Of a stretch of DNA of 64,000 bases, positions 40,851 to 49,551 are shown piece after piece. The DNA is from Nitrospira sp. (GTDB lineage Bacteria > Nitrospirota > Nitrospiria > Nitrospirales > Nitrospiraceae), in the NCBI GenBank assembly GCA_016873435.1, contig VGXF01000001.1:248001-312000 (forward strand). The letters run 5' to 3'. Positions within the stretch are counted from its first letter, which is position 1. Each line of letters begins with the position of its first letter. The notes under the pieces were generated by a model. It worked only from the letters and a program-made list of their open reading frames with translations, was not told the origin of the DNA and made no database searches. Position numbers and translations under genes: made by a program.

Positions 40851-40938
40851 GGGTAGCGAGCAGCTAAGAATTTCTTTTCTGGCTCCCTGCTACTCAGTGC
40901 CGGTTGCCAGCTGTGCTCTGTTCGCTACCCGCTACCAG
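40851..40938. repeat. 'gctatttgct/gctaccc' family inverted repeat between convergent genes
   Basis: GGGTAGCGA (40851-40859) and TCGCTACCC (40922-40930) are perfect inverted arms; the interior has related words (CAGCTAAG, CTGCTACTC, CCAGCTGTG). The right half is coding: it encodes the last residues of the serine hydrolase on the minus strand. Confidence 0.6.
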
Positions 40939-42036
40939 CTCTTTATAAATCAGATCGTGAATCACTGGCCGGAACAGTTTGATTGCTTCGTTGCTCCTTG
41001 ACGGATGCACCCGGTTGGATAGCAGGATTACTTCCAGTTCAGCCTGCGGATCGATCCAGATCGACGTGCCGGTGTACCCGAGATGGCCGAATGAGGCCGG
41101 CGAGAACCGGCTTCCGGACGACGACGGAGCCGACGGCGTGTCCCATCCCAGCGCCCAACTTGACCCCGTGACCCGGTCCTGCTTCGTGACGAATTTCCGG
41201 ACGAGTTCGGACGGCAGCAGCCACCCGCGCCCTACGTAGCTATCCAGCCATTGCCCGGTCACCGTCGACACGGCAGCCGCCGTGCCGAACAGACCGGCGT
41301 GACCGGAGACGCCGCCCAGTGCGTGGGCATTCTCGTCGTGCACTTCCCCCCGGAGCAGCCGGCCTCGCCAGGATTCCTGCTCCGTTGGTGCAATCGTATG
41401 GAGGTCCAAGGGGTGCTCTCCCTTCGCCCCTAAAAACATCAGTGGCGTCTGCATAGGTTTGAAAACCTGCTCCCGGCAATAGGCCTCGAGCGTGTGGCCG
41501 GTTACCCGCTCGACCACCATGCCCAATAGCATGAACCCCAGGTCGCTGTAGACACTGCGCGTCCCCGCGGGATACTCAAGCGGTTCTTCTGCGATCAATG
41601 TCAGCATGCGTGCACGGGCAGCATCGCTGCCGAGCAAGCCCGGCCGTAGCTGGTCTTCTTGCGCAATGCGTTCATAGAATGGCCGCCAACTCGGCAGGCC
41701 GGAGCTGTGAGTGAGCAGGTGCCAGATCGTCATCTCGCCAATCGGATGCCCCACACACTCGGGCACGTGCTTTTTGACGAGGTCGTCCAGCGTCAGCCGT
41801 CCGTCTCGAACCAGCAACAACACGGTGGTCACCGTGGCCAGAGGCTTGGTGAGAGAAGCCAAATCGTAGAGCGTGTCGAGGCAGGCTGGCTCCACGGCAG
41901 GTACCAACGCGGCATTTCCAAAGGCCTGATGACAGGCAACCTGCCCGCGCAGACGGACGAACAGCACGGCGCCAGGGAACACGCCGTTCGCCACGGCGGC
42001 CTGCATGGCGTCACCGATGGGATCAGGCTTGCTCAT
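40894..42036 (-). CDS. Beta-lactamase-family serine hydrolase (class C/EstB-like)
   Basis: 380 residues. The nucleophile motif SLTK is at 61-64, the Tyr motif YSDLG at 164-168, and a C-terminal GHLGYTGTS segment fits the third box. Such proteins are esterases or peptidoglycan carboxypeptidases. No signal peptide is seen, so it may be cytoplasmic. It lies four bases after the end of the broken divIVA. Its last ten residues (SEQSTAGNRH) are encoded by a repeat, so the true family C-terminus is probably nearer residue 370. Confidence 0.85.
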   Translation of the reverse strand: MSKPDPIGDAMQAAVANGVFPGAVLFVRLRGQVACHQAFGNAALVPAVEPACLDTLYDLASLTKPLATVTTVLLLVRDGRLTLDDLVKKHVPECVGHPIGEMTIWHLLTHSSGLPSWRPFYERIAQEDQLRPGLLGSDAARARMLTLIAEEPLEYPAGTRSVYSDLGFMLLGMVVERVTGHTLEAYCREQVFKPMQTPLMFLGAKGEHPLDLHTIAPTEQESWRGRLLRGEVHDENAHALGGVSGHAGLFGTAAAVSTVTGQWLDSYVGRGWLLPSELVRKFVTKQDRVTGSSWALGWDTPSAPSSSGSRFSPASFGHLGYTGTSIWIDPQAELEVILLSNRVHPSRSNEAIKLFRPVIHDLIYKELVAGSEQSTAGNRH

Positions 42037-42039
42037 GCA

Positions 42040-42395
42040 TCAAGTGGAATCATGGGGGTACTCGCGTGATGGAACGCCTCCGAGCGGTTCATCGTCCACC
42101 ATCGGTTCGATCACTAGGGCCGCCTCTGCGTCCCACGCGTCCATCGTGATCACGCGGTCGAACGGCTGCATCATTCCGCGCAGATTTCGATCGCTAGCGC
42201 CATCTCGACCATGCGGGAATTGTCCGACTGCCTTTCGGTGGAGCCCAGCTTCTGGCGCAGAGACGCAGTTTCCCGGTTGAGCTCGTCGACCGCCTACGCG
42301 ATCTGCGCTAGAAACCGGTCGATGTCCTGGCGGTTGTAGCCGCGAAAGGACACCATGAGCACCATGTGCTGAATGTCGAGCCGCGAAATTTTCAT
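42040..42395 (-). pseudogene. divIVA: Broken divIVA (nonsense codon, frameshift or deletion)
   Basis: From ATG 42395, with GAGGGG upstream, the minus strand reads MKISRLDIQHMVLMVSFRGY then NRQDIDRFLAQIA and TAG at 42294-42296, in the place of a residue before VDELNRETASLRQKLGSTE. This is the conserved N-terminus of DivIVA, the polar/septal coiled-coil scaffold. The frame stops again at 42171. A shifted frame (42174-42040) then reads FDRVITMDAWDAEAALVIEP to a stop next to the serine hydrolase, plausibly the tail of the same gene. Total length is well short of a normal 450-500 base divIVA. It sits after yggT, the usual neighbour. Confidence 0.75.
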
Positions 42396-42417
42396 GGCTC
42401 CCCTCGTAGGGCTTCGC

Positions 42418-42714
42418 TCAATGCAGCTGCGCAGCCGTCTCGTACAGCGACTGGACCAGCGCGTATTGCAGGAAATACAAAATCAGAATCACGATCAGCG
42501 GCGACAGATCGATCCCCATCTGCCAGCCCAAGCGGCGCCGGATCGGCTCCAGCACCGGTTCCGTTGCCCGCTCCAGAAACTGCACGATCGGATTCCAGGG
42601 GTCCGGACTCACCCACGACACGAGCGCCCGCGCGATGATGATCCACGTATACAGTGAGAGCACCATCTCTAGCACCCGTGCCAGCCCCTGCAAGGCATTG
42701 CCCGCGACGAACAT
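42418..42714 (-). CDS. yggT: YggT-family membrane protein
   Basis: 98 residues with two hydrophobic segments: VLEMVLSLYTWIIIARALVS and LIVILILYFLQYALV, with the conserved PIRRRLG between. Members are linked to envelope function and cell division clusters. Its start overlaps the proC stop by one base; divIVA would follow. Confidence 0.92.
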   Translation of the reverse strand: MFVAGNALQGLARVLEMVLSLYTWIIIARALVSWVSPDPWNPIVQFLERATEPVLEPIRRRLGWQMGIDLSPLIVILILYFLQYALVQSLYETAAQLH

Positions 42715-48480: not shown

Positions 48481-48590
48481 GCCATCCCCCTAGCCCGCCT
48501 GAGCACGGACTCCAGAATTCTTTTCCTCAGCGTGTCGTAATCCATCCCTGCCTTCGCTGCCGCCCTTATAAACAATATGGTTTCCGTCAT
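48477..48590 (-). pseudogene. Second copy of the ddl C-terminus
   Basis: A 37-codon frame: MTETILFIRAAAKAGMDYDT, LRKRILESVLRRARGMA. It matches the last 38 residues of the intact Ddl just upstream (MTETSLLPMAAAKVGLDYDT, LTEQILESALRRARTFSA) at roughly two residues in three. The two DNA units lie about 127 bases apart. Either a partial tandem duplication or the tail of a former ddl replaced by the present one. It ends in ATGA with ftsQ, so the original coupling is preserved. Confidence 0.7.
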
Positions 48591-48600
48591 CTCAACTTCT

Positions 48601-49551
48601 TCATGCCGAAAATGTACGTGCGCGACGAAGTGCAGACTCAAGAATTTGCTCTGTCAGCGTGTCATAATCCAATCCGACTTTCGCCGCCGCCATGGGCAGC
48701 AGACTCGTTTCCGTCATTCCTGGAATTGTGTTCACTTCAAGGACATAAGGCTTCCCTCTGGGCGTCACGCGAAAATCCACCCGCGCTGCGCCGTCGCAGC
48801 CCAGTAACTCATAGGCCTGGACTGCCAGTTCTGTCACACGCCGGGTCACCGCCGTTGGCAGGGGCGCCGGGCAGAGATACCGACTGCGACCCTTCGTGTA
48901 CTTGGCCGCATAGTCGTAGAACCCGTCAGGCGAGACAATTTCGATCGTCGGCAACGCCATTGTCCGGCGCGGCCCGCGCAGAACGGAGACCGTGATCTCG
49001 TGGCCGGGGATATAGGCCTCGACCACCGCCTCGCGGTCGTGCCGATATGCCCTCGCCAGCGCCGCGTGCCATTCGGACGGTTTGCGCACGATGGAAATGC
49101 CGATTGTCGAACCCTCTGCTGCTGGTTTTACGATCAACGGCCATTTCAGCAGGGCGGGTTTCGCCACCCGCTCGCCTTTCCGCACCACCGTGCCATCCGG
49201 GACCGGAATCCCGTGTGCAGCCAGGACCATCTTGGTCGTCACCTTGTGCATCGCCATGGCGCTTGCGCGGACGCTGGAACCTGTGTAGGGCAGTCCGATC
49301 GTCTCCAAAAATCCCTGCATCGTGCCGTCCTCTCCTCCCGGTCCGTGCAACGCGACAAACACCAACTCAATCTTCTGCTTTGTCAACCGCTCGGGTAGCG
49401 ACGGATCCACGTCAATGGCCACTGCACGATAGCCCCGACGCAACAGCGCGCGATGCACCGCCTGTCCGGTCCGCAGCGAGATGTCCCGCTCGCCCGACTG
49501 CCCGCCCATCAGGACGCCAATGCGAGCCTTCGTCAACGGCTTCGTCGTCAT
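48601..49551 (-). CDS. ddl: D-alanine-D-alanine ligase
   Basis: 316 residues, ATP-grasp. MGGQSGERDISLRTGQAV at the start, ALHGPGGEDGTMQGFLE and the C-terminal EVNTIPGMTETSLLP are diagnostic. It makes the D-Ala-D-Ala dipeptide for MurF. The stop is 120 bases before ftsQ, with the duplicated tail in between. murB is 78 bases upstream. Confidence 0.96.
   Translation of the reverse strand: MTTKPLTKARIGVLMGGQSGERDISLRTGQAVHRALLRRGYRAVAIDVDPSLPERLTKQKIELVFVALHGPGGEDGTMQGFLETIGLPYTGSSVRASAMAMHKVTTKMVLAAHGIPVPDGTVVRKGERVAKPALLKWPLIVKPAAEGSTIGISIVRKPSEWHAALARAYRHDREAVVEAYIPGHEITVSVLRGPRRTMALPTIEIVSPDGFYDYAAKYTKGRSRYLCPAPLPTAVTRRVTELAVQAYELLGCDGAARVDFRVTPRGKPYVLEVNTIPGMTETSLLPMAAAKVGLDYDTLTEQILESALRRARTFSA

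Follow-up and report, generated by a model that had tools for sequence, protein, structure and literature searches.

A member of the DivIVA family has been studied experimentally in another Gram-negative bacterium, Bdellovibrio bacteriovorus, where it is reported to control cell morphology and not progeny number (PMC7186360). Our literature search for DivIVA in Nitrospira, or for divIVA as a pseudogene, returned nothing relevant by title or abstract. Here we describe, from the sequence of a 64,000-nucleotide stretch (the window), a small-genome Nitrospira relative of the family Nitrospiraceae that carries what reads as a dead divIVA gene. While divIVA was removed by experiment from B. bacteriovorus, an unrelated predator, the lineage described here lost it naturally. 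The locus represents a natural divIVA loss of function in a Gram-negative phylum for which we found no study of the role of DivIVA.

Judged by ProC (84%), Nitrospirae bacterium RIFCSPLOWO2_02_FULL_62_14 (G004), from another genus of the same family, is the closest relative with a name. Its DivIVA (L027, L035) is intact, has 170 residues and occupies the same place as the relic, after yggT and before a serine hydrolase gene; the two are 64% identical over residues 1-70, whereas the relic is interrupted by a stop, lacks 60 codons and has a shifted frame. When the G004 protein was used in tblastn searches, the two halves of the relic matched residues 1-70 and 130-169. The Pfam DivIVA profile (PF05103) matched the N-terminal part, with the stop read as X, over profile positions 1-65 (E 3e-10); the score, 40.6 bits where 28 is the cut-off, indicates that this match is not due to chance. 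The ancestral gene order is ftsZ-pgeF-yggS-proC-yggT-divIVA. A divIVA gene follows yggT in this same order in G004, G023, G041, G182 and G105, and is full length at this place in the nearest relatives (G004, G023 and G041). The relic occupies this conserved Nitrospiraceae position, its ATG (42395, minus strand) lying directly after yggT. The earlier note, made from the sequence alone, had stated that the ribosome-binding site and the place after yggT were retained, and both can indeed be read upstream of the start. The coordinates of all features are collected in Table 1.

Table 1. Features of the divIVA relic and its neighbours (window coordinates)
Feature	Position	Strand	Basis
divIVA pseudogene, whole relic	42040..42395	minus	Pfam DivIVA match of N-terminal part; N- and C-terminal tblastn matches to intact G004 DivIVA
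Ribosome-binding-like site GAGGGGAG, kept, upstream of ATG	42398..42405	minus	direct reading
Codons 1-33, DivIVA N-terminal membrane-binding region, readable	42297..42395	minus	sequence and Pfam
Lesion 1: nonsense TAG, codon 34	42294..42296	minus	sequence and alignment to relatives
Codons 35-70, original frame after TAG	42186..42293	minus	translation and alignment
Lesion 2: junction of in-frame 180-base (60-codon) coiled-coil deletion	42194..42202	minus	offset against three relatives
Lesion 3: one-base deletion, frameshift, about 42185	42183..42186	minus	offset 180 to 181 in 3/3 relatives
TGA reached by shifted frame, codon 75	42171..42173	minus	sequence and translation
Out-of-frame C-terminal remnant FDRVITMD...IEPMVDDEP	42040..42185	minus	48% identity to G004 DivIVA residues 130-169
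yggT, intact, upstream neighbour	42418..42714	minus	Pfam YGGT 1.6e-22; 82% identity to G004, full length
Serine hydrolase (beta-lactamase family, PF00144), intact, downstream neighbour	40894..42036	minus	Pfam 1.3e-55; 70% identity to G004, full-length 376-aa protein

Lesions were mapped by aligning the relic to intact divIVA from G004, G023 and G041, its three nearest relatives. That divIVA is broken had been proposed before; against these relatives we found three independent lesions, so that the damage exceeds what had been described. As the earlier note claimed, 33 DivIVA residues are followed by TAG at codon 34, with VDELNRE onward in the same frame, which past the stop reads AVDELNRETASLRQKLGSTERQ. 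Further along, the relic aligns without gaps up to about codon 66-68; from there it continues at the relatives' codon 127-128, and exactly 180 bases is the best or joint-best offset against each of the three. In the relatives, the lost stretch is bordered by an imperfect direct repeat of 9 bases, whose two copies agree at 7 positions, which suggests that the deletion probably occurred via slippage between these short repeats. The third lesion is seen as a switch of the offset from 180 to 181 after relic codon 70. A frame change had been placed near 42171; there is a TGA there (42173-42171), but the frame actually shifts upstream of it, at the one-base deletion. Likewise, the rest of the gene had been called shifted and shortened, which is right on both counts, except that the shortening is mainly due to the 180-base deletion, which had been missed. 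The C-terminal remnant matched G004 DivIVA with an E-value of 8.7e-7 and terminates in a TGA a few bases ahead of the ATG of the next gene. Thus, instead of the uninterrupted frame of about 160-180 residues and the central coiled coil of functional DivIVA, the locus presents a frame interrupted at codons 34 and 75 and a coiled coil lacking 60 codons, and, compared with intact orthologues, it carries more than one disabling lesion, as expected of a pseudogene. Since the window's genus is represented among the compared genomes by its own genome alone, no sister strain confirms these lesions. We consider it very probable from the sequence that the family's divIVA has become a pseudogene here, in its ancestral place, and that selection on it has lapsed in a lineage whose genome is small.

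The genome is a draft of 1,719,115 bases (1.72 Mb) in 33 contigs, 98.5% complete. It had been suggested that another copy might lie elsewhere. Searches of this genome did not bear this out: the PF05103 profile found the relic's place only, and the closest intact protein found only its two halves, the next match (E 0.23) falling within a 543-aa open frame. Because the assembly is not closed, an unassembled copy could exist, but with neither search retrieving one, it is very unlikely that a diverged second copy keeps the DivIVA function.

The draft state of the assembly also bears on whether an assembly or sequencing error has made an intact gene look broken here. For this, about 110 bases would have to contain three errors with no connection to each other, the 180-base loss among them, and there would have to be false changes at nearly invariant positions as well, while the neighbouring genes shared with relatives read cleanly. 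Three separate lesions in one gene flanked by clean neighbours make an error of this kind very unlikely. When the window was compared with contigs G004:C37 and G023:C2, using longest ORFs chosen mechanically, some of which are antisense frames in this G+C-rich DNA, the other shared genes aligned over their length. These are genes that we take to be murG, murC, ddl, ftsQ, ftsA, ftsZ, yggS, proC, yggT, serine hydrolase, pgsA, ispE, prs and others. Decay of the whole region was rejected on this basis. As a separate observation in the same region, the gene starting near 49539, probably ddl, has its 3' end partially duplicated in tandem at positions 48489-48590 (minus strand). This duplicate comprises 34 codons, matches the original tail at 68 of 102 bases and sits between the original and ftsQ; in G004 the probable ddl and ftsQ genes overlap, leaving no room for it.

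The pseudogene reading would entail the following course. Selection for DivIVA would have lapsed in the small-genome lineage after most of the divergence from the nearest sampled relatives, and the original start would now yield a peptide of 33 residues at most. Such a peptide is too short to build the coiled-coil dimer that DivIVA needs in order to function. The cell would presently divide by FtsZ and FtsA and elongate by MreB, without a DivIVA scaffold. The 180-base deletion keeps the frame exactly, so that a shorter protein could have been produced at some earlier time. There is a slim chance that the deletion first gave a working DivIVA of ~110 residues which was abandoned later, or that a fragment still acts as a small polar or membrane peptide, with division in this lineage proceeding without MinC and without full-length DivIVA. 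It is likewise very unlikely that the locus works today in a shortened form (by readthrough of the TAG, as a 33-residue N-terminal peptide or as a separately started C-terminal fragment), for although the start codon and the ribosome-binding-like site are kept, the large deletion preserves the frame and the IEPMVDDEP stretch differs from G004 by synonymous bases only, the frame stops at codon 75 after the frameshift even with readthrough, conserved N-terminal residues are lost and no recoding is indicated. On this last point, by a rough tally in which some ORFs may be antisense, 13 of the window's 53 longest non-overlapping ORFs stop at TAG, and the MreB and FtsA homologues contain no internal stop; an altered genetic code was therefore rejected.

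We then compared the pseudogene with 34 intact Nitrospirales DivIVA sequences at 15 N-terminal columns, each conserved in at least 90% of them. The relic departs at 5 of these nearly invariant columns, including the invariant P5, F13 and V25, while the intact sequences show 0, 1 or at most 2 departures. The pN/pS ratio of the relic against G004, G023 and G041 was 0.26-0.31; comparing the intact relatives with each other over this part gave 0.10-0.17. Being far below 1, the relic's ratio indicates that most of the divergence happened under constraint and, hence, that the gene was probably lost recently when set against the split from these relatives. In the same comparison the intact flanking genes yggT and proC gave 0.19-0.26, and the relic exceeds them by so little that relaxed selection is unproven by pN/pS alone.

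Regarding distribution, a DivIVA match was present in 172 of the 175 Nitrospiraceae genomes, and in 114/114 of those at least 90% complete with at most 5% contamination, a count that takes in the relic itself and G131, whose sole match is weak (2.5e-4). Nearly all good genomes of the family keep an intact divIVA, the exceptions being these two. In G131 (99% complete), DivIVA was not found by a protein search of the genome. Its locus L127 (G131:C1:1155500-1165500) holds ftsZ, pgeF and yggS together, but a search of these 10 kb around ftsZ did not reveal proC, yggT, divIVA or the serine hydrolase gene. Both genomes are alike in that no working divIVA was found in them, but in the relic's genome only divIVA decays, and does so in place. 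A further DivIVA match in the family, G166:C142:2791-3177 (L119), contains one internal TAA; G166 has a second match. Genome size as the sole cause of the loss was rejected, since G182 (1.8 Mb), G105 (2.0 Mb) and G154 (1.7 Mb) keep the gene. In other families of the order, no DivIVA match was found in G026, G029 (one contig) and G040, at 99-100% completeness, nor in G028 and G037, both 92% complete. The first three belong to one genus of another family and probably represent an independent loss. Near-complete genomes without DivIVA make the gene look dispensable in the order. The relic is a case of ordinary gene decay in a small genome, uncommon within its family; pseudogenisation of a dispensable polar scaffold is ordinary in kind and here probably recent.

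Finally, we considered the division machinery. MinC was absent from the nine genomes tested, which implies that DivIVA cannot anchor MinC in these bacteria. A link between the loss and the Min system offered no contrast, MinC being absent with or without DivIVA. A link to flagella was also rejected: eight of the nine genomes lacked flagellin, including relatives with intact divIVA, and the sole flagellin-bearing one was G131, itself without DivIVA. In this setting without MinC, the relic suggests that DivIVA can be dispensable in this phylum. The earlier note had linked the loss to a changed cell shape. The relic's genome has MreB, FtsA and an intact FtsZ; together with the absence of divIVA elsewhere in the order, this means that a strong shape defect need not follow, and a mild effect on cell shape is possible and the most that can be proposed.
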